Positions 1,656 to 18,759 of a DNA stretch of 39,865 nt are shown here, piece by piece. The stretch's first letter is position 1. Each line of letters begins with the position of its first letter. This DNA comes from Verrucomicrobiota bacterium. GTDB taxonomy: Bacteria; Verrucomicrobiota; Verrucomicrobiia; Verrucomicrobiales; Akkermansiaceae. The DNA is taken from contig JAGWXY010000014.1 in NCBI GenBank assembly GCA_018969605.1, positions 1 through 39,865 of the forward strand. The letters run 5' to 3'. The notes beneath the pieces are model-generated. The model was not told the origin of the DNA and made no database searches. It saw nothing but the letters and a program-made list of their open reading frames with translations. A program made the position numbers and the translations under genes.

Positions 1656-2354
1656 ATGGCAAATATTTTTCCCCGTTGGTCCAATCTGTTGCCGCTCAAA
1701 ATTGCCGTCTGCATCGGATCTGCGGTGGCCGGGGTCGCCCTCGCCTTCAACTACTACGCAACGCCAAAATCCCTTACTGTCGGCTATCAACCCTCCCAGC
1801 CGATCCCCTTCTCCCACAAGATCCACGTCGACCAACTCGGGCTCGACTGCCGCTACTGCCACTCGTTCGTCGATGTCTCCGGCCACTCGAATGTCCCAAC
1901 CAGCAACACCTGCTGGAACTGCCACCAGCATGTGCAACGCGATAGCCCGAAACTCGCTCCGCTCCATCGCTCGATGGACCCGGCCTTTCCCGGCTACGAC
2001 GGCAAGCCGATCGAGTGGGTCCGCATCCACAAATCGCCTGATTACGTCTATTTCAACCATTCAGCTCACGTAAACCGCGGTATTTCCTGCCAAAGCTGCC
2101 ACGGCGATGTGAACAAAATGGAAGTGGTCTATCAGGACCAAAGCCACTCGATGGGCTGGTGCCTCGAGTGCCACCGGGCCCCCGAAAAGCACCTCCGCCC
2201 GCTCGAAGAAGTGTACAACTTTGACTACAACGCGGAGACCTACATCTCCAACAACCCGCAGTTGGGCGTCAAAACCACCAAGGATCTCGGCCTGAAACTC
2301 AAGGAGCAGTTTGATGTGAAACCCAAGGAAAGCTGCGCCACCTGCCACCACTGA
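1656..2354 (+). CDS. actA: ActA: pentaheme c-type cytochrome subunit of alternative complex III
   Basis: ActA is the multiheme cytochrome of the quinol:cytochrome c oxidoreductase called alternative complex III. It passes electrons from the iron-sulfur subunit towards the monoheme subunit and the terminal oxidase. Five CXXCH heme sites are visible: CRYCH (65-69), CWNCH (86-90), CQSCH (145-149), CLECH (169-173) and CATCH (227-231). A hydrophobic N-terminal segment (about 13-34) is an uncleaved anchor or signal. Extra histidines in FSHKIHVDQ and YFNHSAHVNRG are placed like the second axial ligands of cytochrome c7-type folds. The 232-residue length fits the family. It is the first gene of the act series, 45 bases before actB. 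The start ATG is preceded by a pyrimidine/A leader, not a ribosome-binding site. Confidence 0.95.
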   Translation: MANIFPRWSNLLPLKIAVCIGSAVAGVALAFNYYATPKSLTVGYQPSQPIPFSHKIHVDQLGLDCRYCHSFVDVSGHSNVPTSNTCWNCHQHVQRDSPKLAPLHRSMDPAFPGYDGKPIEWVRIHKSPDYVYFNHSAHVNRGISCQSCHGDVNKMEVVYQDQSHSMGWCLECHRAPEKHLRPLEEVYNFDYNAETYISNNPQLGVKTTKDLGLKLKEQFDVKPKESCATCHH

Positions 2355-2399: not shown

Positions 2400-5777
<3,378 letters not shown>

Positions 5778-5780
5778 AGA

Positions 5781-5895
5781 CACAAGACTTCAAGACACAA
5801 GACGCAAGAGAATGAAACAGAACACCAGCAAGACCAATGTCGCGCGCAAGGGAAGCACTCTCTTCCCTCTTGATTCTTGCAGTCTTGCTTCTTGC
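5781..5895 (+). repeat. CAAGAnn heptamer cluster and its inverted copy in the actB-actC gap
   Basis: The 159-bp gap between actB and actC contains about four CAAGA(C/G)-type units at 5781-5810. A reverse-complement set of TCTTG units follows at 5867-5895. The two clusters can pair imperfectly to form a long hairpin of about 30 bases per arm. The same type of TTCTTG/CTTGCTTC sequence recurs at 24271-24376. The function is unknown; it could be a mobile or slippage-derived repeat, or an mRNA structure tuning expression within the operon. Confidence 0.55.
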
Positions 5896-5936
5896 ATCTC
5901 CGGCCATCTCTCCTAACGCCCCTCATTTTACCCACC

Positions 5937-7412
5937 ATGGCATCCTCAACCCCAACCGCGAACGAAAGCCACCCGGAGATCAAACTCCCGGTACTCGAAC
6001 GCGAACAGCTCATCCTCAACAACCGCTCCTACAATTGGATCACCGAGCGGATCTGCGGCGTTCTTGAAAACCGGCAACCGCTCCTCTGGTGGCTGCTCTT
6101 CATCCCATCCGCCCTCATCGCCCTCATCGGCGTCGGCGGCGGCCTCACCTACCTCGTCGCCAGCGGCGTCGGCGTCTGGGGCATGACCAACCGCGTCTTT
6201 TGGGGCTGGGACATCACCAACTTCGTTTTCTGGATCGGCATCGGCCACGCCGGCACGCTGATCTCCGCCGTGCTCTTCCTCACCCGTCAAAACTGGCGCA
6301 CCTCGATCAACCGCGCCGCCGAGGCGATGACGATCTTCGCGGTGATCTGTGCCGGCATTTTCCCAGCCTTCCACGTCGGCCGCGTCTGGTTCGCATGGTT
6401 CCTCGCACCGATCCCGAACGCCAACGCGATCTGGCAAAACTTCAAGTCCCCCCTGCTCTGGGACGTATTCGCGGTCTCGACCTATTTCACGATCTCCCTG
6501 ATTTTCTGGTACCTCGGCATGGTCCCCGACCTCGCCACGATCCGCGACCGCTGCAAACCCGGGCTGCGCAAATTCCTCTACGGTATCTTCGCGATGGGCT
6601 GGCGCGGCGGCAACCGCCAGTGGAGCCACTACGAAATGGCCTACCTCCTGCTCGCCGCCCTCTCGACCCCGCTCGTGCTCTCGGTGCACTCGGTGGTGTC
6701 CTTCGACTTCGCCACCTCAGTGGTCCCCGGCTGGCACACGACGATCTTCCCACCCTACTTCGTCGCCGGCGCGATCTTCGGTGGCTTCGCGATGGTGCTC
6801 ACGATCATGGTCCCCGCACGCTTCATCTATGGCCTGCAGGACCTGATCACGATGAAGCACATCGACAACATGGCCAAGATCATCCTGCTCACCGGCACGA
6901 TCGTTGGCTACGCCTACCTGATGGAGCTCTTCGTCGCATTCTATTCGGGCGCGATCTATGAAATGGATGCCTTCAAGTTCCGCATCGCCGGCCCATACTG
7001 GTGGGCCTACGCGGCGATGATGTCGCTCAACGTGCTCTCGCCACAGCTCTTCTGGTTCAAAGCCTGCCGCGAAAACCTCTGGGTCATCATGGCCGTCGCG
7101 ATGTGCGTCAATGTCGGCATGTGGTTCGAGCGCTTCGTCATCATCGTTACCACCCTCGCCCGCATGTGGCTCCCCGGCGACTGGAAAACCTACAGCCCCA
7201 GCGGCGTGGAAATGATGACCTTTGTCGGCACGATCGGCCTCTTCCTCGCGCTCTTCATGCTGTTCCTCAAATTCCTCCCCTGCATCAACATCGCCGAGGT
7301 GAAATGGACACTCCCGCAGTCCGATCCTCACCACGACGACAAGGAACACCACCCGGACCACGGCATCGCCAGTGAAGCCGCCTATCAGAAGGAATTGGTC
7401 TCCTCGAAATAA
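5937..7412 (+). CDS. actC: ActC: NrfD/PsrC-like integral membrane subunit of alternative complex III
   Basis: ActC is one of two quinol-binding membrane subunits of alternative complex III and sits under ActB. The protein (491 residues) has about ten hydrophobic segments, starting with [20 protein letters not shown]. It has NrfD-family hallmarks such as [20 protein letters not shown] near residues 88-107 and the pair of polar helices around [18 protein letters not shown]. Its C-terminus is charged and rich in Asp and His. The frame is open upstream to 5877, but the ATG at 5937 gives the family-typical MASSTP start and avoids the repeat cluster. It is followed after 32 bases by actD. Confidence 0.94.
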
Positions 7413-7444: not shown

Positions 7445-8002
7445 GTGAGCACCACCCGCAAACGCGTCTACGGCTACCTCGCCGAATTCAAGAGCGCCTC
7501 CGCCCTCTACAAGGCAGCGGAAAAAATCCGCGACTCCGGTTTTCGGAAATGGGACTGCTACTCGCCCTACCCAATCCACGGCCTTGATGGCGCGATGGGC
7601 ATGAAACGCTCGATCCTTCCATGGTTCGTGTTCTTCGGCGGCATGACCGGTACTGCCACGGCCTTCGCCCTCGCCTACTCGACCCAAGTGGTGATCTACC
7701 CGACCATCGTTCAGGCCAAGCCCGCCAATATCTTCACTATCCCGGCCTTCTTTCCGGTGATGTTCGAGCTGACCATTCTCTTCTCTGGCTTCACGGTACT
7801 CTTCGGCCTGCTCGCGCTGACCCAACTCCCGCGCCTCAACCACCCGCTCTTCGCCAGCAAACAATTTCACCGCGCCACCGACGATGGTTTCTTCATCGCC
7901 ATCGAAGCACGCGACCCGAAATTCAACCCGGAAAAAACCCGCAGCCTCCTCGCCGAAATCGGCGGCGACAACATCGAACTCGTCGAAGAAGAGGATGCCT
8001 GA
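7445..8002 (+). CDS. actD: ActD: DUF3341-type membrane subunit of alternative complex III
   Basis: This 185-residue protein belongs to the DUF3341 family (ActD). It starts with a soluble ferredoxin-fold-like domain (VYGYLAEFKSASALYKAAEK, then FRKWDCYSPYPIHGLDGAMG). Two transmembrane helices follow, at about residues 58-80 and 98-124, and then a soluble tail. ActD has no cofactor; it packs on the membrane and cytoplasmic side of the complex. The start codon is GTG, preceded only by TTTCACCC. It lies between actC and actE, as in other act operons. Confidence 0.93.
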   Translation: MSTTRKRVYGYLAEFKSASALYKAAEKIRDSGFRKWDCYSPYPIHGLDGAMGMKRSILPWFVFFGGMTGTATAFALAYSTQVVIYPTIVQAKPANIFTIPAFFPVMFELTILFSGFTVLFGLLALTQLPRLNHPLFASKQFHRATDDGFFIAIEARDPKFNPEKTRSLLAEIGGDNIELVEEEDA

Positions 8003-8056: not shown

Positions 8057-8698
8057 ATGCGCTATTTCTTCCTAGCCTACGCGATCATCGCACTCCTCGT
8101 TGTCGGCATCTTCGGCATCCGCGGCCAGAAGTTCTCTCAGCCTCCCGTCCGAATTTTCCCTGACATGGATGAGCAGGACAAATTGAAGGCCCAAAAGCCC
8201 TCCGCGTTTTTCGCCGACGGCCATGGTGGCAGGCTCCCCGTGCCCCAGACCCAACCCCGCGGCTTCAACCCCGCCGGCGAGTCCAGCATCGGTGGCATCC
8301 CCGAATACGAATTCGGCGGCACGCCCGATTACTACCACACCGGCCAAATCAACGGCTTCTTCGGCACCGGCATGCCAGAACAACTCCAACTCACCGCCGA
8401 GAACGCCCACGAACTCATCGCCCGCGGCAAAGAACGCTACGGCATCTACTGCGCGGTCTGCCACGGATCCTCCGGCAACGGCCTGGGCATGACCAGCCGC
8501 TACGGCGTCCCCGGCATTGCCAACCTCCTTCTCCCCACCTTCGGCGAAGAATCCTACCCGGACGGCCGACTCTACCACACGATCACCAACGGCAAGGGCA
8601 TGATGAGCGGCTATGGCTACAACATCCCGGTCAGGGACCGCTGGGCGATTGTCGCCTATGTCCGCACGCTCCAGGCCGCCAAGGCATCTTCCAAATAA
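8057..8698 (+). CDS. actE: ActE: monoheme cytochrome c subunit of alternative complex III
   Basis: ActE (213 residues) is the monoheme cytochrome of the complex, thought to hand electrons to the downstream carrier or oxidase. It has an N-terminal hydrophobic anchor (residues 4-20) and then FPDMDEQDKLKAQKPS, a variant of the DMxxQPKxKPQ stretch typical of ActE. One heme site, CAVCH (132-136), is followed by a loop with Met182/Met183 (GKGMMSGYG) as the likely distal ligand. The start ATG is 54 bases after actD, with a CT-rich leader. It is followed 15 bases later by actF. Confidence 0.93.
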   Translation: MRYFFLAYAIIALLVVGIFGIRGQKFSQPPVRIFPDMDEQDKLKAQKPSAFFADGHGGRLPVPQTQPRGFNPAGESSIGGIPEYEFGGTPDYYHTGQINGFFGTGMPEQLQLTAENAHELIARGKERYGIYCAVCHGSSGNGLGMTSRYGVPGIANLLLPTFGEESYPDGRLYHTITNGKGMMSGYGYNIPVRDRWAIVAYVRTLQAAKASSK

Positions 8699-8713: not shown

Positions 8714-10024
8714 ATGGCCCACCATCCCGTCACTTCCGCAGAAATCGCCATCCACGGCGATCATCTCGATAGCTCCAAGGTCGCCCGCGTGAAAGGCATC
8801 GCCTTCTTCATCGCACTCGTCGGCACTGCTGCGAGCCTTTACCTGCTTTTCCTCGCCCCGGAAAAAACCCGCGGCTCCTTCGCCTATTCCTGGCTATTTG
8901 CATTCTACTTCTTCCTTACGCTATCCATCGGCGGATGCTTCTGGACCCTCCTCCACAATGTCTCGAACTCCGGCTGGGGCACCTCCGTCCGCCGCACCTT
9001 CGAAAACCTCGGCTCCACCTACCCGTGGATGTTCCTCTTCGGCATCCCGCTGCTCTTCCCGCAAGTTCAGCAATACCTCTACGAGTGGATGAACATCCAC
9101 CGCGCAGGCCACGGCAATGTGAAGGAGCACCTCCACCACGTCGACCACCTGCTCTACAACAAGTACTGGTTCATGAACCTGCCATTCTGGTACGGACGCG
9201 TGATCTTCTGGGGCCTCGGCCTCTCGCTTGTCATCATCGGCCTGCGCAAACTTTCCACCGCCCAAGACACCGACCCAAACCCCGGCACCTCGCGCCTACT
9301 CAAGGCCCGCTTTCACTCGACCTACACGCTCATCATCTTCGCCCTCACGATCACCTTCACCGGCTTCGATTTCATGATGGGCCTCGACTACAAGTGGTTC
9401 TCCACGATGTGGGGCGTCTACCTCTTCGCAGGGTCCGCCCTCAACTCGATGGCAGTCATCATCCTCGTCTGCGCATGGCTCAAAAGCGCCGGCCACCTGA
9501 AACATGTCACCAGCGGTGAGCACTTCCACATCATGGGCAAGCTGCTCTTCGCTTTCACGGTGTTCTGGGCCTACATCACTTTCTCACAATACTTCCTCAT
9601 CTGGTACGCCGGCATCACCGAAGAAACTTCCTACTTCCTGATCCGCAACACCGGCAACTGGAACATCGCGATGATCGCTCTGGTCTTCGGCCACTTCGTG
9701 GTTCCCTTCGTCATCCTCCTGCAAGCATGGCTCAAGAAAAATCCAAAAGCTCTCGCGATCATGGCCGCCTACACGCTCTGCATGCACGTGCTCGACCACT
9801 ACCTGATCACGATCCCCGAACGCGGCATCTCACTCGGCAACATCAAGCCCGAGGTCTTCGGTGAAATCCAAGTCGCCATCCCCGGCGCCTTCTGGGGCGA
9901 CATCCTCGCCTTTGTCAGCATCGGCGCTGCCTTCGTTTTCTTCCTCCTCCGCGCCATCGGCCAGCACTCGCTCTACCCGAACCGCGACCCACGCATCCTC
10001 GAATCCGCCAACCTCTCCAACTGA
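8714..10024 (+). CDS. actF: ActF: second polytopic membrane subunit of alternative complex III
   Basis: ActF (436 residues) is a divergent relative of NrfD/ActC and forms the second half of the membrane domain. About ten hydrophobic helices are visible, starting at GIAFFIALVGTAASLYLLFL (residues 27-46). Conserved-looking blocks include GFDFMMGLDYKWFSTMWGVY (about 219-238) and YFLIWYAGITEETSYFLIR. Other conserved charged residues lie in the helices, as expected for proton pathways. It completes the actABCDEF set in the standard order, with only eight bases to the next gene. Confidence 0.93.
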   Translation: MAHHPVTSAEIAIHGDHLDSSKVARVKGIAFFIALVGTAASLYLLFLAPEKTRGSFAYSWLFAFYFFLTLSIGGCFWTLLHNVSNSGWGTSVRRTFENLGSTYPWMFLFGIPLLFPQVQQYLYEWMNIHRAGHGNVKEHLHHVDHLLYNKYWFMNLPFWYGRVIFWGLGLSLVIIGLRKLSTAQDTDPNPGTSRLLKARFHSTYTLIIFALTITFTGFDFMMGLDYKWFSTMWGVYLFAGSALNSMAVIILVCAWLKSAGHLKHVTSGEHFHIMGKLLFAFTVFWAYITFSQYFLIWYAGITEETSYFLIRNTGNWNIAMIALVFGHFVVPFVILLQAWLKKNPKALAIMAAYTLCMHVLDHYLITIPERGISLGNIKPEVFGEIQVAIPGAFWGDILAFVSIGAAFVFFLLRAIGQHSLYPNRDPRILESANLSN

Positions 10025-10032
10025 TCCCGCCA

Positions 10033-10437
10033 ATGTCCATCGACCCGTCACGCGACAACCCGCTGATCCGCTTTGCCTCATTCTGGTGGGGGCTTGCCAC
10101 CTTCTTTGCCTTCGCATTGATCCTGGCGCTGGTCATCCTTTTCAACCGCAAGGCTCCCGAAACCCTTGAGGACGAAGCCGCCAAGGCGCGTTACAAAACC
10201 AAGGCCGAGGTGATCGCCGCCCAAGCCAGCAGCCTCACACCCGAGGCGATCAATGCCGCCATCCCGGCCGTCGCCGCCAAACTCGCCGCTTCGAAACCCG
10301 CCGCCGTGGAAAAACCCGAGCAGGCAGTCCCCGCACCTCAAGCAGCACCCGCCGCTGCCCCCGCAGCTCCGGCTCCGGCCGCTCCCGCCCCAGAGGCAGC
10401 TCCCGCTGTTGCTGAACCCACCCCAGCCGCCAACTGA
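10033..10437 (+). CDS. Small membrane protein with an Ala/Pro-rich tail, linked to ACIII
   Basis: The 134-residue product has one transmembrane helix (about residues 14-37, within FWWGLATFFAFALILALVIL). A charged helical stretch follows, with YKTKAEVIAAQASSLTPEAI, and from about residue 93 the protein is almost pure Ala, Pro and Glu. There is no CXXCH, no metal motif and no recognised family. Eight bases separate it from actF and 24 from the CcoN-like gene, so it is surely co-transcribed. The helix plus long flexible tail would suit a tether or spacer within a respiratory supercomplex. That role is inference. The tail is low-complexity and its length is probably not conserved. Confidence 0.75.
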   Translation: MSIDPSRDNPLIRFASFWWGLATFFAFALILALVILFNRKAPETLEDEAAKARYKTKAEVIAAQASSLTPEAINAAIPAVAAKLAASKPAAVEKPEQAVPAPQAAPAAAPAAPAPAAPAPEAAPAVAEPTPAAN

Positions 10438-10461: not shown

Positions 10462-11955
10462 ATGTCTTCCGCCACCACCTCATCTTCTGAACAGGACGCC
10501 CTGCTGCGCGCCGGGATCGACCGCTCACTGCGCCACCCGGTGATGTTCTTCCTCACCAGCGGTGCCGCATGGCTCGCGGTCTCGATCCTCCTCGGCATCA
10601 TCGCCTCGGCCAAGGTCCACTCGCCCGGTTTGCTCTCGAGCTGCGCATGGCTCACCTACGGCCGCGTGTTTCCCGCTCACCTCAACGCACTGGTCTACGG
10701 CTGGGGCATGCAGGCGGCCTTCGCCGTGATCATCTGGCTCATGGCCCGCCTCTCCCGCAAGGAATGCACCATGACCGGTACCATCCTCACTGCCGGGCAC
10801 CTCTGGAACCTCGGCGTCTCGCTCGGAGTCATCGGCATCCTTTCAGGAAATGGCACGGGCATCCCGTGGATGGAATTTCCGACCTTCGCATGGCCCGTAC
10901 TGCTGATCAGCTACATCGCCATCCTCATCGGCTCATTCATCCAATTCCGCGTCCGCCCCGAAGGCCATGTCTACATCTCGCAATGGTACCTGCTTGCGGC
11001 GATGATCTGGTTCCCCTGGATCTTCATCACCGCCAACACGCTCCTTCACTGCATCCCCGGCCACCCCGTGATGGGTGCCGCGATCAGCGCCTGGTTCCGC
11101 TCAGCCATCATTTTCCTCTTCTTCATGCCCGTCGCGATCGGCGCTGCCTACTACCTCGCTCCCAAGGTCACCGGCCGCCCGATCTTCAGCTACTCACTGG
11201 CCAAGCTCGGCTTCTGGTCGCTCGCGATCATCGCCCCATGGGCCGGCATGCAAAAACTCACCGGCGCACCCATCCCCTACTTCCTCCCCTACCTCGGCGC
11301 CGCCGCCACCGCATTAATCTTCGTGCCCGCCGCCACCGCCGCCTACAACACGATCCGCACCATGCTCTCAGCCGAGGAAACCCTCGCCGTCAGCCCCTCG
11401 CTGCGCTTCACCGTCGCCGGCATCACCGGTCTGGTTGTACTCGCCGCCGCCGCGGTTTTCCTCAACCTCCCAGGCTCAACCCTCCCACTCACGCAATTTT
11501 CCCTCTCCGGCTACGGCTTCGAAATCCTCGCGATCTACGGCTTCTTCAGCCTCGTGATGTTCGGCACCGCCTACTTCATTGTCCCACGCGTCACCCGCCG
11601 CGAATGGCTCTCCAGCCGCCTCATCAAGATCCACTTCCTATTCTCAGTCTACGGCATCATCACCGTGGCACTCATCACTCTGTTCGGCGGACTCCAACAA
11701 GGCATCGGCCAAGAAGACTGGAAACAACCCTGGGCCGCCGCCGCTTCCCGCGCCTACCCTTACGCAGTCGCCAACACGGTCGCTTGGATTCTCATCCTTT
11801 TCTCCAACCTCTTCTTCCTGCTTCACCTCGCCCTGATGTGGATAGGCCTCGGCCGCCGCAGCTCGCATCCGACCCTCTTGCAAAGCGCCCACGCCTCCAG
11901 CCCGCACGGAGCCGAAGGCGACATCGACAACGCCGGACCCGCCACCACCCATTGA
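10462..11955 (+). CDS. CcoN-like (cbb3 subunit I family) protein lacking the heme-copper ligands
   Basis: The fold and many landmarks are those of cbb3 oxidase subunit I: about 12 helices, GRVFPAHLNALVYGWGMQAA (68-87, His73 at the first low-spin heme ligand), QWYLLAAMIWFPWIFITAN, YYLAPKVTGRPIFSYSLAKL, and KIHFLFSVYG. The catalytic residues are gone. Aligning by the YYxxPKxxGRP block, the CuB histidine of WYGHN is Ser214 (WFRSA). The His-His pair after WAG is Gln264-Lys265 (WAGMQKL). The HxH ligands of the high- and low-spin hemes are Phe353 and Ile355. No His-His dipeptide occurs anywhere in the 497 residues. It therefore cannot reduce oxygen by the known mechanism and probably has a structural or other role. 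The ligand positions were aligned by eye. Confidence 0.88.
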   Translation: MSSATTSSSEQDALLRAGIDRSLRHPVMFFLTSGAAWLAVSILLGIIASAKVHSPGLLSSCAWLTYGRVFPAHLNALVYGWGMQAAFAVIIWLMARLSRKECTMTGTILTAGHLWNLGVSLGVIGILSGNGTGIPWMEFPTFAWPVLLISYIAILIGSFIQFRVRPEGHVYISQWYLLAAMIWFPWIFITANTLLHCIPGHPVMGAAISAWFRSAIIFLFFMPVAIGAAYYLAPKVTGRPIFSYSLAKLGFWSLAIIAPWAGMQKLTGAPIPYFLPYLGAAATALIFVPAATAAYNTIRTMLSAEETLAVSPSLRFTVAGITGLVVLAAAAVFLNLPGSTLPLTQFSLSGYGFEILAIYGFFSLVMFGTAYFIVPRVTRREWLSSRLIKIHFLFSVYGIITVALITLFGGLQQGIGQEDWKQPWAAAASRAYPYAVANTVAWILILFSNLFFLLHLALMWIGLGRRSSHPTLLQSAHASSPHGAEGDIDNAGPATTH

Positions 11956-11977: not shown

Positions 11978-12682
11978 ATGAGTCTTCGCACCTTCATTCT
12001 CGGCCTTTCAGCCAGCTTCGGCGTCGCATGGCTCGCCATCGTCGTCATTCCGTTTTTCAAAATGCGCAACCTCGAGCCGATCCAGCTCGATGAAGTCGCC
12101 GACGGCACCACCGGCATCTTTTACCCGAAACGCACCGGCCGCATCGCCGATGGCTCGCGCGTCTATGCCCAAAACGGCTGCTACCTCTGCCACTCGCAAC
12201 TCGTGCGCCCAACCTACGCCGGCAATGACCTCTTCCGCCCGGACTGGGGAGGCCTCAAGTCCGACGGCGACCGCGGCGACACCCGCCGCGAAACCAACGC
12301 CTACGACTTCACCGGCGAGAAATTTGCCCAAATTGGCGTCACCCGCATGGGTCCCGACCTTTCCAACCTCGGCCGCCGCCTCGACGCACTCCACGCCAAA
12401 GGCGAAAGCCCCGAAGCATGGCTCTACAGCTTCCTCTACAACCCGCGCTCGAATCCCGAGCACTGGAAGTCAACCTGCCCGCCACAACCTTTCCTCTTCG
12501 TGAAACGCGAAATCAAAGGCAACCCCTCGCCCGATGCCCTGCCAGTCAATGCCGGCGAAGGCTTCGAAATCGTCCCAGGCCCCGACGCCAAGGCCCTGGT
12601 CTCCTACCTGCTTTCACTCAAGAAAGATCAAAAGGTCCCCGCCGTGCTCAACTTCGCCCCAGCGAAAAAAGCCGGCAGCTGA
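11978..12682 (+). CDS. CcoO-like membrane-anchored monoheme cytochrome c
   Basis: This 234-residue protein follows the CcoN-like gene, as CcoO does in real cbb3 operons, and shares its layout: an N-terminal anchor helix (about 7-27), one heme site in NGCYLCHSQLVRPTY (C68, C71, H72), then MGPDLSNLGRR. Where CcoO carries the distal Met ligand (a ...NMPxYxWL block after NPRS), this protein reads NPRSNPEHWKSTCPPQPFLF, so Cys167 replaces the Met. A His/Cys-ligated heme would have a very low potential, so the protein may be a modified or regulatory carrier. The CcoO relationship is clear from order and motifs; the ligand swap is an alignment by eye. It starts 22 bases after the CcoN-like stop. Confidence 0.85.
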   Translation: MSLRTFILGLSASFGVAWLAIVVIPFFKMRNLEPIQLDEVADGTTGIFYPKRTGRIADGSRVYAQNGCYLCHSQLVRPTYAGNDLFRPDWGGLKSDGDRGDTRRETNAYDFTGEKFAQIGVTRMGPDLSNLGRRLDALHAKGESPEAWLYSFLYNPRSNPEHWKSTCPPQPFLFVKREIKGNPSPDALPVNAGEGFEIVPGPDAKALVSYLLSLKKDQKVPAVLNFAPAKKAGS

Positions 12683-12712: not shown

Positions 12713-13492
12713 ATGTCTCTTCCCGAACAAAAGCCAGACCTTGAGGACTCGATCAATGTGAGCGAGGCCCACGGCCGCCTGGTTCGCGAGGCCGCCGCCT
12801 GCGTCCGCGAAAAACGCATTGCCGCCAACGGCTCAGAGCCAATCTCACTCTGGGTCATCGCACTCTGCGGCGTGGTCGTCCTCATCGCCGGGGGCATTCT
12901 CGGCGGTGCCGGCGACTGGTTCAATTACAAGGCTACCTTCCGCGAAGGCTATGTCCGCTCCGCCGCACCCGGCGCCGAAGATACCGGACCTCAACCGAAA
13001 GAAGCCCTCGCCGCCTACATGGCGAAAGGCGCAAAAATTTACTCGGCCAAATGCAACGGCTGCCACGGCGCCGATGCGAAAGGCGATGGTGCCAACTACC
13101 CGTCCCTCGTCGGATCAAAGTGGGTCGTCGGTAGCTCGGAAAAACTTTCGATGATCATCCTCAACGGCCTCCAAGGCCCGACCAGCACCGGCAAAACCTA
13201 CGGCGCCGGCATGCCCGCCCAAGCCGCCGGCCTCACTGCCGAGGACCTCGCCGGAATCATGACCTACATTCGCAACAACTTCGGCAACACCACCGGCGAT
13301 GTGATCACTGCCGAGATGGCCAAAGCCGCCCTCGACATCTCCGCCGCCCGCGCCAAAGCCGGTCAACAAGTCACCGGCGAGGAACTCGTCGCCGATCACG
13401 ACAAGGCCCTCCCCGGCGCACCACTCGACCCGAAAACCATGGTCGATCCCGTCACCCTCGCTCCCGCGACCGCACCCGCCGCCCAGCCCTGA
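12713..13492 (+). CDS. Membrane-anchored monoheme cytochrome c (CcoP position)
   Basis: The 259-residue protein has a soluble N-terminus of about 45 residues and one transmembrane helix (45-66). A class I cytochrome c domain follows, with heme site CNGCHG (114-119) and likely distal ligand Met167 in YGAGMPAQA. Its C-terminal tail is rich in Pro and Ala. It stands where the diheme CcoP would be in a cbb3 operon, but has only one heme domain. It is the best candidate for the direct electron donor to CuA of CtaC, because CtaC here lacks the fused cytochrome domain of caa3 enzymes. That donor role is inference from gene order. Confidence 0.87.
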   Translation: MSLPEQKPDLEDSINVSEAHGRLVREAAACVREKRIAANGSEPISLWVIALCGVVVLIAGGILGGAGDWFNYKATFREGYVRSAAPGAEDTGPQPKEALAAYMAKGAKIYSAKCNGCHGADAKGDGANYPSLVGSKWVVGSSEKLSMIILNGLQGPTSTGKTYGAGMPAQAAGLTAEDLAGIMTYIRNNFGNTTGDVITAEMAKAALDISAARAKAGQQVTGEELVADHDKALPGAPLDPKTMVDPVTLAPATAPAAQP

Positions 13493-13542: not shown

Positions 13543-15408
13543 ATGAGCGCTCACTCCAACGACCATCACGACGATCATCATCACAATCCGGGATTCCTCT
13601 CGAAATATGTGTTCTCCACCGACCACAAAATGATCGGCATCCAGTACGGCATCACCGCCCTGCTTTTCCTCGCTTTCGGTTTCTACCTGATGATGGTGAT
13701 GCGCTGGAGCATCGCCTACCCGCACCAACCACTGCCCGAGTGGATGAGCTGGATCTTCACCGACAACTGGAAAGCCCGCTGGCTCCAGGACGGCAAGGTC
13801 ACCGGTGAAACTTACAACATGTTCGGTGCCATGCACGGAACGATCATGGTGTTCCTTGGCATCGTGCCCCTCGGCTTCGGCGCCTTCGGCAACTACGTCA
13901 CCCCTCTTCAAATCGGCGCGCCCGACATGGCATTCCCCCGCCTCAACATGATGAGCTACTGGATCTACCTCGCCGGTGGCCTCGTGATGTGCGCCTCGTT
14001 CTTCATGGAGTCCGGTGCCGCGAAATCCGGATGGACAAACTACTCACCACTCGCCGGATTCGCCGACGGCCAAATCGTCAACCAATGGCTTGCCGGTCAA
14101 ACCCAATGGCTCATCGGCCTGGTCCTGCTCATCACCTCCTCGCTGCTCGGCTCGGTAAACTTCATCACCACCATCATCAACCTCCGCGCCCGCGGCCTCA
14201 CCTGGATGCGCATGCCCTTCTTCGTGTGGGCGATGCTCGTCACCGGTTTCCTTCTCCTGCTCGCCTTCCCGCCGCTCGAAGCCGCCGGCATCATGCAGCT
14301 CATGGACCGCGTGGTCCACTCGTCCTTCTTCATGCCCTCCGGCCTCTTCACCAAGAGCGAAGGCCTCGCCGATCTCTCCGGTGGCGGCTCGCCACTGCTC
14401 TTCCAACACCTCTTCTGGTTCCTAGGCCACCCGGAGGTCTATGTGCTTCTCCTGCCAGCATTCGCCTGCGTCGCGGAAATCATCCCCGTCCACACCCGCA
14501 AGCCGCTATGGGGTTACAAATCGATGGTCTACTCGGTCCTCGTGCTCGGCTTCCTCTCCTTCATCGTGTGGGCGCACCACATGTACATGACCGGCATGGG
14601 CCCGGCAGTTTCGACCTTCTTCCAAACCACCACCGTGCTGATCTCGGTGCCCTCCGTGGTCATCATCACCGCGATGCTCATTTCACTCTGGGGCGGCTCG
14701 ATCCGCTTCACCCCACCCATGATGTGGGCCTGCGCGTTCATCCCGATGTTCGGCATCGGCGGTCTCACTGGCCTTCCGCTCGCCTTCAACCTCGCCGACC
14801 TCCACCTGCACGACACCTACTACGTGATCGGCCATTTCCACTATGTCGTGGCACCGGGCATCCTCTTCGGTTTCTTCGCAGGCATCCTCCACTGGTACCC
14901 GAAAATTACCGGCCGCTTCATGAGCCCGTTCCTGAACCAGCTGCACTTCTGGCCCAGCCTCATCTGCATGAACATCATCTTCTTCCCGATGCTCCTGCAA
15001 GGCATGGCCGGCTTCCACCGCCGCTGGTACAACGGTGGCGATGCCTACCTCTCAAAGGCCGCCGACAGCACCAATGTCTTCGGCAACACGGTCGCCCAAT
15101 ACATCGACATGAACATTCTCATGTCGATGGGCGCATGGACCCTCGCCGTCGCGCAGATCCCCTTCATCATCAACCTATTCACCTCATGGAAATTCGGTCG
15201 CAAGGTCACCAGCGACAACCCATGGAATGCCACCACCCTCGAGTGGGCCACCCCAACCCCTCCAGGCCACGGCAACTTCGAATTCGAACCCGCCGTCTAT
15301 CGCGGACCCTACGAATACAGCCGCCCGGATCACGCCGAGGACTTCATCCCGCAATGGGAAGAACCCAAACGCACCGACTCCTCAGCCCCCACCAAGCCCT
15401 CACATTGA
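13543..15408 (+). CDS. ctaD: CtaD: A-type cytochrome c oxidase subunit I
   Basis: This is the catalytic subunit of an aa3-type heme-copper oxidase, which reduces oxygen to water and pumps protons. All ligands are present: the low-spin heme a His in FGAMHGTIMVF (about 98), CuB His with cross-linked Tyr in LGHPEVYVLLLP, the CuB His-His pair in WAHHMYMTG, and heme a3/a ligands in VIGHFHYVVAPG. The Glu in HPEVY marks an A1-type enzyme, and GAPDMAFPRLNMMSYW fits the D-channel entrance. The N-terminus is unusually His-rich (NDHHDDHHHN), which could bind metal. At 621 residues it has normal family length. The start has a short AGGT upstream, one of very few purine-rich leaders here. Confidence 0.96.
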   Translation: MSAHSNDHHDDHHHNPGFLSKYVFSTDHKMIGIQYGITALLFLAFGFYLMMVMRWSIAYPHQPLPEWMSWIFTDNWKARWLQDGKVTGETYNMFGAMHGTIMVFLGIVPLGFGAFGNYVTPLQIGAPDMAFPRLNMMSYWIYLAGGLVMCASFFMESGAAKSGWTNYSPLAGFADGQIVNQWLAGQTQWLIGLVLLITSSLLGSVNFITTIINLRARGLTWMRMPFFVWAMLVTGFLLLLAFPPLEAAGIMQLMDRVVHSSFFMPSGLFTKSEGLADLSGGGSPLLFQHLFWFLGHPEVYVLLLPAFACVAEIIPVHTRKPLWGYKSMVYSVLVLGFLSFIVWAHHMYMTGMGPAVSTFFQTTTVLISVPSVVIITAMLISLWGGSIRFTPPMMWACAFIPMFGIGGLTGLPLAFNLADLHLHDTYYVIGHFHYVVAPGILFGFFAGILHWYPKITGRFMSPFLNQLHFWPSLICMNIIFFPMLLQGMAGFHRRWYNGGDAYLSKAADSTNVFGNTVAQYIDMNILMSMGAWTLAVAQIPFIINLFTSWKFGRKVTSDNPWNATTLEWATPTPPGHGNFEFEPAVYRGPYEYSRPDHAEDFIPQWEEPKRTDSSAPTKPSH

Positions 15409-15459: not shown

Positions 15460-17073
15460 ATGGAAATTCCATTCGTCGTCCAACCACGCAAGGACACCGG
15501 CCTCTTCAACTCGAAGATCGCCATCTGGCTGTTCCTTGCCTCGGAAGTCATGCTCTTCGGCGGCTTCTTCTCCGCCTATGTCTTCCTCCGCCTCGGCGCC
15601 GATTACCCCTGGCCCGAACGCACACTGCCCGTCCTCCCAGGCCTCATCAACACCTTCATCCTCATCGGCTCATCGGTCACCGTGGTCTTCGCATGGGCCT
15701 CGCTCAAACTCGGCCATTGGGGCCGCTTCAAAATCTTCATGGGCATCACGGTCGCCTGCGCCGCAATCTTCATGGTTTTCAAAGGCATCGAGTACAACGT
15801 GAAGTTCCACCACCAAGGAGTGCGCCTCAAGGACTATACGGTCATCGAAGGTCACCTCGGCTACGAAAAGGAAAACGGCAAGCCGGTCCTCAACCATCAC
15901 GGCAAAAAAATCGAGGAAAACCAAATTCTCATCGAAACCAGCGGACTCACCTACAATACGGTCCGTTTCCACAAACCATGGATCGAGGAAGCCCTCACCC
16001 AGGCCAAACACCGCGGCTCAAAGATTTTCCTCAGCGCCGATGTCAGCGCCGTCACCAAACCCGGCCAGCCGGCTGAAACCATCGCCAAGGCCGGCGACGA
16101 ACTCAGCGTCGCCCTCCTCGAACGCGTCAAAACCGCCCACCTCGCTGCCCGCGCCCACAACGGCAAGCTGCGCACCAGCGCACTCCGCCAGGAATGGAAG
16201 GAAGCAAAAGCCGCAAACCCCGGCAAACGCGATTGGCAAATCTCCTCCGGCGTCAACATCGACACCGCTGCCCTCGCACCCCAACTCCTCACCGAAATCC
16301 CCTCCGTCGCTTTCAAGGTCGATCCACCATCGCGCTTCGACTTCAAGCCCCGTGACATCAAACACGGCGAAACCCAATCGCGCCTGCGCGACGACACCAG
16401 CGTCGAAGGCAAGCTCCTCGATAGCCCGATGGTCTTCCACTATGTCGATGCGATCGACTTCCGCCACCTCGCCATGCGCGCCGTGAAAAAAGGCGTCGAC
16501 CCGATCGTCGCAATCGAAAACTCCTGGCTCATCAAAAACGACCAAGCCGCACGCGAAGCATGGGAATGGAACAAACTCCAAACCGCACGCCTCGAAAAAG
16601 AATTGCTCGAACAATACGGCGTCGATGAAAAAACCGGCAAACCGAAACGCGAACCAACCGCCAAGGAACGCTACCGCATCGGTTGGAAAGAGCTCGTCGC
16701 CAAAGCCGATGGCGTGAACCGCGATCAACAAAAGGTCACGATCAAGGAAGAATTCATGGGCCCCGATTACCAAGGCCGCGAAGGAAAACACACCTTCCCC
16801 CACCTCTCGGTCCCACGAAACGAAATCCGCTTCGCATCAAAATTCACCCCCGCTTGGAACACCTACTACGCGATCTATTTCACCGTCACCGGCCTCCACG
16901 GCCTCCATGTGATCGGTGGCGCGCTCGTGCTGGCCTACTACCTGTTCTTCGGTCGCAAGATGTACGAAACCAACCCGGAATGGCTCGCCAACCGCGTCGA
17001 AGTCGCCGGCCTCTTCTGGCACTTTGTCGACCTGGTCTGGATCTTCGCATTCCCGATCTTCTATTTGATGTAA
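15460..17073 (+). CDS. ctaE: CtaE: cytochrome c oxidase subunit III with a large internal insert
   Basis: Both ends are typical subunit III: IAIWLFLASEVMLFGGFFSA (20-39) and KGIEYNVKFHH near residue 112 at the front; YAIYFTVTGLHGLHVIGGAL (470-489) and VAGLFWHFVDLVWIFAFPIF at the back. Subunit III is usually about 200 residues; this one is 537. The extra length lies between residues about 118 and 465 (bases 15811-16855), exactly where related proteins have a short loop. The insert is hydrophilic, has no clear transmembrane segment, no CXXCH and no recognised domain, and is rich in Lys, Glu and Ala. The reading frame is continuous and flanked by correct family sequence, so it is a true insert, not an assembly error. 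Confidence 0.93.
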   Translation: MEIPFVVQPRKDTGLFNSKIAIWLFLASEVMLFGGFFSAYVFLRLGADYPWPERTLPVLPGLINTFILIGSSVTVVFAWASLKLGHWGRFKIFMGITVACAAIFMVFKGIEYNVKFHHQGVRLKDYTVIEGHLGYEKENGKPVLNHHGKKIEENQILIETSGLTYNTVRFHKPWIEEALTQAKHRGSKIFLSADVSAVTKPGQPAETIAKAGDELSVALLERVKTAHLAARAHNGKLRTSALRQEWKEAKAANPGKRDWQISSGVNIDTAALAPQLLTEIPSVAFKVDPPSRFDFKPRDIKHGETQSRLRDDTSVEGKLLDSPMVFHYVDAIDFRHLAMRAVKKGVDPIVAIENSWLIKNDQAAREAWEWNKLQTARLEKELLEQYGVDEKTGKPKREPTAKERYRIGWKELVAKADGVNRDQQKVTIKEEFMGPDYQGREGKHTFPHLSVPRNEIRFASKFTPAWNTYYAIYFTVTGLHGLHVIGGALVLAYYLFFGRKMYETNPEWLANRVEVAGLFWHFVDLVWIFAFPIFYLM

Positions 17074-17110: not shown

Positions 17111-17479
17111 ATGGCCGACACCCCCGAAGCCGTCCGCAAATCCATCCGCACCTACCTCTTCGTCGGCGCCGTCCTCTTCGTCGGCACCGTCCTCACCGTG
17201 CTCGTCGCCACCGTACCTGCACTCGATATCGGCCATCACGGCTTCGATGTATGGGACGCCATCCTCGGCCTCGCCATCGCATCCACCAAGGCCGCTCTCG
17301 TCGCCTTCATCTTCATGCACCTCAACCACGAGAAAAAAGCGGTCTACTGGATCTTCGGCTCCGGCCTCATTTTTGTGATCGCACTCTTCGCCCTCTTCGC
17401 CCTCGCAAAATACGACCCGATCTTCGACAACTTTTTCTACGACCCCACTGGCACTGCCGTGAAACCGATGGCACTCTGA
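17111..17479 (+). CDS. ctaF: CtaF: cytochrome c oxidase subunit IV (prokaryotic COX4 family)
   Basis: The 122-residue protein has three hydrophobic helices, and its second helix ends in the family signature STKAALVAFIFMHLNHEKK. Prokaryotic subunit IV helps assemble and stabilise the CuB site of aa3/caa3 oxidases. It starts 37 bases after ctaE, preceded by CCCTTCATCCC and no Shine-Dalgarno. The order ctaD-ctaE-ctaF is the usual one. Confidence 0.92.
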   Translation: MADTPEAVRKSIRTYLFVGAVLFVGTVLTVLVATVPALDIGHHGFDVWDAILGLAIASTKAALVAFIFMHLNHEKKAVYWIFGSGLIFVIALFALFALAKYDPIFDNFFYDPTGTAVKPMAL

Positions 17480-17994: not shown

Positions 17995-18759
17995 ATGAGC
18001 CCCTCGAAACTCCTCGGCATTCCTGAAAACTTCTCCGCCCACGGAGGCCAGGTCGACCACATGATCGATGTGGTCCACTGGTTCATGTTCGCGCTCTTCA
18101 TCGGTTGGACGATTTTCTTCCTCTACTGCATCGTGCGCTTCTGGCACCGCAACAACCCAAAGGCCTCCTACCACGGCGTCAAAAGCCACCTCTCCACGCA
18201 CCTTGAAGTCGGCGTGATCATCATCGAGGCAGTCCTCCTCCTCGGCTTTGCCTTCCCGCTCTGGGCCGAACGCACCGATAGCTGGAAGGAAGTTCAAAAC
18301 CTCAACCCGGTTCGCTCGCGCGTGGTCGGTTGGCAATTCGGCTGGACTTACCACTACCCCGGCAACGACGGCAAATTCGGCCGCGTCGACCCCGCCCTCA
18401 TCTCCGGCACGAACGACCTCGGCATCGACTTCGAAGACCCGAACGCATGGGACGATTTCACCAGCCCGATCCTCAAAATCCCTGTGAACCGACCCGCCGT
18501 CCTCAACATCGGCAGCAAGGATGTCATTCACAACTACTCGATCGTGCCCATGCGCATCCAACAGGACGCCATCCCAGGCCGCGAAATCCCCATGTGGTTC
18601 ACTCCGATCAAAACACTCGAAACCTACGTCGTCTGCGGCCAGCTCTGCGGCGAAGGCCACGGCAACATGATCGGCACCATGGAAGTGGTCGACTCGAAGG
18701 CCTTCGAAACTTGGGCCACCGCCCAGTCCGACGAGGCCCTCAAGGTTCACAAGAAATAA
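17995..18759 (+). CDS. ctaC: CtaC: cytochrome c oxidase subunit II with CuA site
   Basis: Subunit II accepts electrons from cytochrome c at its binuclear CuA centre. Two transmembrane helices are visible (about 27-47 and 72-90), then the aromatic patch VGWQFGWTYHYPG that passes electrons to heme a. The full CuA ligand set follows: His179 (VIHNYSI), then CGQLCGEGHGNM (214-225) with Cys214, Cys218, His222 and Met225. There is no C-terminal cytochrome c domain, so the enzyme is aa3-like and not caa3. Unusually, ctaC comes last in the operon, after two tiny membrane protein genes, instead of before ctaD. The stop is 14 bases from the convergent methyltransferase gene. Confidence 0.95.
   Translation: MSPSKLLGIPENFSAHGGQVDHMIDVVHWFMFALFIGWTIFFLYCIVRFWHRNNPKASYHGVKSHLSTHLEVGVIIIEAVLLLGFAFPLWAERTDSWKEVQNLNPVRSRVVGWQFGWTYHYPGNDGKFGRVDPALISGTNDLGIDFEDPNAWDDFTSPILKIPVNRPAVLNIGSKDVIHNYSIVPMRIQQDAIPGREIPMWFTPIKTLETYVVCGQLCGEGHGNMIGTMEVVDSKAFETWATAQSDEALKVHKK

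Follow-up and report, generated by a model that had tools for sequence, protein, structure and literature searches.

A cbb3-type subunit I without its metal ligands, retained in the ACIII operons of many Verrucomicrobia

What is a respiratory-chain operon that already encodes an aa3 oxidase doing with a second oxidase-like subunit I, one from which nearly all of the metal ligands have disappeared? The question is raised by a stretch of 39,865 nucleotides (the window; all positions below refer to it unless another locus is named) from a genome of the Verrucomicrobiota (2.43 Mb, 98.7% complete). The original prediction placed the gene, here called N, inside an ACIII-aa3 operon, and the order actA-F, N, O, P, ctaD, ctaE, ctaC, all on the forward strand, agrees with that placement. 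The ACIII genes encode ActA with five CXXCH motifs (1656..2354), ActB with Fer4 domains (2400..5777) and ActC of the NrfD family (5877..7412), both assigned through Pfam, ActD (7445..8002, PF11821), an ActE-like mono-heme cytochrome c (8057..8698), and ActF (8714..10024), which has no Pfam match and was assigned by position and conservation. The gap between ActF and N encodes a small one-helix, Ala/Pro-rich protein (10033..10437), which could be an ACIII accessory subunit that has no name yet; the protein in this slot has a motif like YxWIDxxxGxVRIPIDxAM in many other loci. N itself (10462..11955, 497 aa) is followed by O, a CcoO-like, membrane-anchored mono-heme cytochrome c with CXXCH at residue 68 (11978..12682), and by P, a CcoP-like mono-heme cytochrome c with CXXCH at residue 114 (12713..13492). 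The aa3 genes encode CtaD, subunit I with its His motifs present (13543..15408), CtaE, subunit III (15460..17073), a small membrane protein taken as subunit IV from position and conservation (17111..17479), and CtaC, subunit II with a CuA motif and no heme c (17995..18759). CtaE has an inserted soluble stretch of about 300 residues, located between the first and the last helices. Loci from the window's taxonomic order also have long CtaE ORFs, with mostly shorter ones elsewhere.

The cbb3 subunit I fold originally claimed for 10462..11955 is borne out by both profile and structure. N scores 135.7 bits against Pfam COX1 (cut-off 34.8), has the 12-helix subunit I fold of the heme-copper oxidase superfamily, and is nearest by sequence, within the COX1 family, to the cbb3 CcoN. 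An AlphaFold2 model of N (pTM 0.84, pLDDT 78.7) matched solved CcoN chains with Z 38.3-39.9 (best Z 39.9, rmsd 2.5 over 439 residues), followed by NO reductase (Z 36.3 and 35.0) and A-type oxidases (Z 31.5 and less). One of the three stretches of the model with pLDDT <50, residues 265-272, lies at the old site. The ligand columns were placed by HMMER alignment to solved cbb3 CcoN and by a 164-sequence alignment; for orientation, the CuB ligands of Pseudomonas stutzeri are given as His207, 257 and 258, plus a cross-linking Tyr (PMC3578206). A single ligand His of six is kept in the window N, namely the low-spin heme His H73 (codon 10678..10680). The column of the first CuB His holds S214 (11101..11103), those of the CuB His-His pair hold Q264-K265 (11251..11256), and F353 to I355 (11518..11526) span the columns of the heme b3 His and of the second low-spin heme His. 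In terms of function, S214, Q264, K265 and F353 stand where the three CuB/FeB His and the proximal His of the high-spin heme should be, and I355 stands where H73 would find its partner in a bis-His low-spin heme b. The cross-link Tyr of the His-pair helix is also absent (A258, 11233..11235), a loss that the original prediction did not mention; its observations that only His73 remains and that no HH dipeptide occurs anywhere in the 497 residues were confirmed. Judged from these columns, N is very probably unable to reduce oxygen.

Automated annotation had been expected to mislabel such a gene as a cbb3 oxidase. The expectation is borne out by the general Pfam COX1 model and by the methanotroph literature discussed below, but not by the NCBIfam ccoN equivalog, against which N scores 103.8 bits, under the cut-off of 583.15. 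Two intact relatives miss that cut-off as well (235.1 and 224.5 bits), so it does not by itself split dead from live N. Against the same model one methanotroph N scored 22.5 bits and another gave no score.

Strong N matches were found in 32 of the 36 other genomes of the genus (absent: G007, G020, G025 and G031) and in 21 of 22 genomes of the order (absent: G040), and the named homologues at 59-84% identity belong mostly to Akkermansiaceae and other Verrucomicrobia. Luteolibacter marinus (L069), a relative in culture, is among the carriers of a degenerate N. A class-wide draw gave matches in 94 of 141 genomes at E 1e-3, a figure that includes ordinary CcoN, with no N match in the 18 listed genomes of genus g18. 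Searching the phylum at E 1e-40 gave matches in 75 of 240 genomes, ordinary CcoN fusions among them, and this search was left out of the counts. The close homologues comprise 70 distinct sequences (loci L001-L094 and L113-L115), with all six columns filled in 68. H73 is present in 70/70, and the alignment of homologues proposed with the original prediction finds the missing ligands conserved as missing, with no ligand His besides H73 in any of the 68. Their six-letter state is HSQKFI in 56/68, which argues against a chance state. One of the six peptide patterns used to find one locus set spans Q264-K265; the loci of the relatives search in genus and order genomes were found without peptide patterns.

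Across 147 distinct N rows (L001-L174, some gapped), six ligand His were counted in 19, five in 1, three in 1, two in 10, one in 96 and none in 20; that is, 127/147 have three or fewer. The cross-link Tyr follows the same division, being present in 20/20 rows with five or six His and in 0/119 of the other fully filled rows, and H73 itself is often lost in degenerate N of other families. The single five-His row is L120 (L120:7536-9050), in which a CuB His is replaced by Arg and a CcoS-like gene still lies upstream; it may represent an early stage of loss or an error in its single assembly. The 19 loci with all six His and the Tyr belong to other families and occupy the same kind of operon slot. 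Intact homologues in that position had been named in the original prediction as the sign of a local decay, and they might suggest that N is a dispensable gene in recent decay. We regard this as extremely improbable, since the same loss is shared by 68/68 fully filled close homologues, the strong N matches found in the genus are free of internal stop codons, and the median pN/pS of N is 0.176. That value is close to ActF (0.175) and lies between CtaD (0.108) and ActB (0.219), O (0.263) and P (0.290), as calculated from 28 pairs of eight named loci with synonymous sites near saturation. These ratios indicate that N is under purifying selection. The intact homologues are real, and a local decay was ruled out by the fixation of the loss in all close homologues together with pN/pS.

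Of the columns conserved at ≥90% in intact rows, 44 remain at ≥80% among the degenerate rows, and in 53 others the letter changes or conservation drops to <50%, columns in between being left uncounted; all six ligands and the Tyr fall among the 53. Several of the 44 kept columns differ from canonical CcoN, which could indicate that N keeps an ion- or quinone-handling role (a proton path or a quinol site) without redox chemistry. We give this reading a small chance only, as Gly, Pro, Trp and Arg make up most of the kept columns, a composition that points to structure. Still less probable is a new metal site or chemistry built from H73 and other residues: the retention of H73 in every close homologue would suit it, but H73 is lost in degenerate N of other families. 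A site formed by other histidines was considered and rejected, since intact and degenerate rows share just one conserved His, H391, which canonical CcoN has too.

The degenerate loci also lack a gene resembling CcoS, the cofactor-inserting maturation factor of cbb3. Among 84 representative loci, a CcoS-like gene was found in 19/19 intact, in the single five-His locus (L120) and in 0/64 fully degenerate ones, positioned between ActF and N or, in L123, just before N; the family-specific profile was trained on 15 intact loci, and the other four and L120 were found untrained. It was not found in the ActF-N gap of the window. Pfam FixS gave matches in 6/10 intact genomes (5 over cut-off), always just upstream of N, and none in 12 degenerate genomes or in the window genome, in a search that misses 4/10 intact genomes. 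Seven independent pairs on the ActB tree showed agreement between CcoS and ligand state in 6 or 7, none opposed, with a median p of 0.0156. Rhodobacter capsulatus CcoS mutants are described as having a cbb3 that is fully assembled but inactive (PMC5742617), so an inactive cbb3 can assemble. With the ligands, the Tyr and the CcoS-like gene gone, and the fold, the operon place and purifying selection kept, the non-catalytic 'pseudo-cbb3' subunit of the original prediction is a well supported description of N.

How often the ligands were lost depends on the tree consulted. The ActB tree (76 loci) needs 10 state changes, at least 7 of them on well supported branches, the ActF tree (81 loci) needs 11 (5 on supported branches) and the O tree (84 loci) needs 6 (4 on supported branches). 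The N tree, in contrast, unites the 64 fully degenerate rows in one clade (support 99) and needs 2 changes, L120 included, as would be expected from one ancient loss after which operons exchanged N or an intact CcoS-N cassette. The degenerate rows have long branches, and they may cluster because long branches attract. When 15 degenerate rows were added one at a time to the intact rows, the N of L135 nested with support 99 within L122/L125/L129, a clade close to which its ActB and ActF are found as well; L138 and L159 were placed beside that clade (64, 0), L157 near L128 (0) and L116 with L119 (87), and the remaining placements were weak. A 32-row N tree divides the degenerate rows, besides L120, into two groups, with L135 and L138 joining L122/L125/L129 (85) and seven others together (98). 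Forcing the nine fully degenerate rows of this subset together costs 26.5 log-likelihood units with p-AU 0.0575, so a single clade is not rejected, and neither is the placement of L135 alone with its three neighbours (p 0.298); nearest-intact identities agree only in part. Weighing the operon trees and the single placements against the N tree and the AU result, we consider a single loss with exchange a serious though unlikely account, and repeated loss of the N ligands is favoured but not proved.

The genes around N suggest what its role may be. The order actB-C-D-E-F, N, O, P is common to intact and degenerate loci. O lies downstream of N in 84/84 representative loci, P is present in 83/84 (exception L131) and ActF lies upstream in 81/84; of the three loci without ActF, two stop at a contig end and the third is the intact L123. 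The latter locus (L123:8913-10715) has an intact N-O-P set with a CcoS-like gene and about 9 kb upstream without act genes, and ActD lies on another contig of its genome. N does not accompany ACIII in all Verrucomicrobia, since one Verrucomicrobiota isolate is described with ActABCDEF followed directly by a caa3 oxidase, with no N-O-P named in that description (PMC13274419). O and P are cytochrome c partners of the CcoO/CcoP type, P with a single heme; the number of CXXCH motifs is one for O in 170/170 loci, and for P it is one in 165/168, two in 2 and none in 1. The axial Met of P is kept in the window and in 82/82 loci with the column filled. In O the corresponding column holds Met in 19/19 intact loci and 48/65 others, the remaining letters being Cys (11), His (3), Ala, Ser and Arg. 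It is Cys in the window (Cys167, opposite a Met in a profile alignment to solved CcoO) and in 39/39 rows of alignment A3 (close relatives), pointing to a c heme with His/Cys ligation and an unusual potential. The structure model of O was poor (pTM 0.55, pLDDT 64.5) and was not used.

In other organisms, the proposed link between ACIII and complex IV is a sixth ActA heme domain (F. johnsoniae) or a heme on the oxidase (caa3 of R. marinus) (PMC8552683). Neither bridging heme is present in the degenerate loci, because ActA has five hemes in 94/95 where found and CtaC lacks heme c in 68/68 (some genomes being counted twice). Apart from ActA and ActE, the operon's remaining c hemes are those of O and P. 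The explanation that we favour, and hold to be reasonably probable, is that a non-catalytic N serves as the membrane anchor of the O and P cytochromes on ACIII, docking or relaying to aa3. N would then be a respiratory pseudoenzyme, a cbb3 subunit I that lacks ligands for heme b3-CuB or a bis-His low-spin heme and remains in the ACIII assembly as one of its membrane subunits. Its origin would be an active ACIII-cbb3 arrangement, still found in some relatives. Electrons would leave ACIII through a c heme to the CuA of the adjacent aa3 oxidase, the exit heme most likely being that of P, whose CXXCH and axial Met are kept; alternatively, N may merely dock ACIII and aa3. The scaffold between complexes that was originally suggested is, by inference, the best remaining reading.

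Several observations weigh against such a hub. ActE alone might feed aa3, in which case O and P are not needed as a wire, and where Cys replaces the axial Met of the O heme, that heme may be unfit for the potential range concerned. The missing bridging heme does not appear special to degenerate loci, as intact loci are alike (five-heme ActA in 17/17 found; CtaC without heme c in 3/3 read). Docking to aa3 is not mirrored by gene order everywhere, because 25/57 degenerate loci with more than 6 kb downstream have no same-strand ctaD after N-O-P. That said, ctaD follows N-O-P in 32/57 degenerate against 3/19 intact loci with such room, an association that would also suit an N that is no structural subunit but helps to assemble the neighbouring aa3 or handles its heme or copper. 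We find this rather improbable, given that N stays with the act genes where no ctaD follows and that the residues it has lost are the metal-binding ones. Two further loci fit the anchor reading poorly by their gene content, namely the intact L123, with N away from act genes, and G098, with a degenerate N and apparently no aa3.

The oxidase complement of whole genomes bears on the same point. In the window genome the COX1 family consists of N and CtaD only and cytochrome bd gave no match; on these searches, the aa3 encoded next to N is the only identified terminal oxidase. In G066 (99% complete) an intact N is the sole COX1 match and cytochrome bd gave no match, so N is the only identified terminal oxidase there. 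An A-type oxidase was found in 33/35 genomes with degenerate or five-His N versus 13/19 with intact N (Fisher p 0.017, kinship uncorrected and types assigned by reading of match scores). Of the 35, two lack an A-type oxidase: G074, where a canonical CcoN fusion was found, and G098. In G098 (L174) no COX1 match other than N was found at E 1e-8 and cytochrome bd is present, so its N serves no aa3.

The verrucomicrobial methanotrophs very probably present the same protein under another name. In family f12, an N match was obtained in ten genomes; every one of them encodes PmoA and has a single N-like match. The five methanotroph N that were read (L167, L169-L172) have 1/6 His, at the K265 column and not at H73. 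The other COX1 matches of f12 are aa3-like, a type of 564-568 aa taken as ba3, and a third type that proved to be cNOR in the three read. In L172, from a PmoA-bearing complete genome (G090), a nos cluster (L172:11846-18094) encoding NosZ (956.9 bits), NosD (451.1 bits) and an ABC ATPase lies between ActF and N, and N-O-P-ctaD follows it. Published descriptions place a cbb3 oxidase directly beside ACIII in these methanotrophs (PMC6688271; PMC8498564), link it to high oxygen affinity (PMC6688271), count the cbb3 type among their terminal oxidases (PMC8498564, PMC10205796) and report for Methylacidiphilum caldifontis IT6 a nos insertion within ACIII genes with adjoining aa3 and 'cbb3' genes (PMC11102522). 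Because the place is the same, in one complete genome down to the nos insertion, and no other CcoN-like match exists in these genomes, the gene described beside ACIII in methanotrophs as a cbb3 oxidase very probably encodes this protein without ligands. A working assumption about methanotroph oxygen affinity and terminal oxidases would be touched by this. As a separate observation, the cbb3 genes of two acidobacterial strains are reported as weakly expressed and not induced at low oxygen (PMC8407424); that they share the ligand loss is offered as an idea only.

Taken together, the alignments indicate that many Verrucomicrobia carry a ligand-less N in the middle of a respiratory-chain operon and that most copies have lost the site. 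N may have the structural task of holding electron-carrying cytochromes in place between two complexes that do work. The wider proposition is that in Verrucomicrobiia a cbb3 core became a structural subunit of ACIII, losing oxidase activity and CcoS repeatedly, to form a cytochrome-holding hub towards aa3, the methanotroph cbb3 being such a dead hub; for this whole chain of claims we see the chances as evenly balanced. If true, a heme-copper oxidase core has survived without its metal centre as a respiratory pseudoenzyme, and the intact-degenerate pairs constitute a natural experiment on the non-catalytic role of N. Matches to 'ccoN' from general models need a ligand check before low-oxygen respiration is inferred from them. 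Our search of the open-access full-text literature found no report of this ligand loss.

Compared with known systems, N shares with cbb3 CcoN the fold, the heme c neighbours O and P and several conserved structural residues, and differs in having 1/6 His ligands, no cross-link Tyr and no CcoS-like gene; cbb3 subunit III is described with two hemes c (PMC3578206), whereas the window P has one CXXCH. A published departure from the cbb3 active site is that of Nitrospina gracilis, in which the Trp near CuB is replaced (PMC3578206); in the window N that Trp (W211) is still present while the His are gone. The Rhodobacter capsulatus CcoS mutants resemble our case as an assembled, inactive cbb3 without CcoS (PMC5742617), whereas the verrucomicrobial state is natural and fixed, and has lost the ligands too. 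Flavobacterium johnsoniae ACIII-aa3 and Rhodothermus marinus ACIII-caa3 likewise have act genes followed by an A-type oxidase, but loci of the window type lack the sixth ActA heme of the former and the CtaC heme c of the latter, and have N-O-P inserted between. The same operon arrangement has been described as an ACIII-cbb3 gene cluster in Opitutaceae and in verrucomicrobial methanotrophs (Refojo 2010, cited in PMC8498564). The intact form, found by us at 19 loci, fits a working C-type oxidase, while in the methanotrophs, where the literature treats it as a cbb3 oxidase, the five N read of ten keep 1/6 His.
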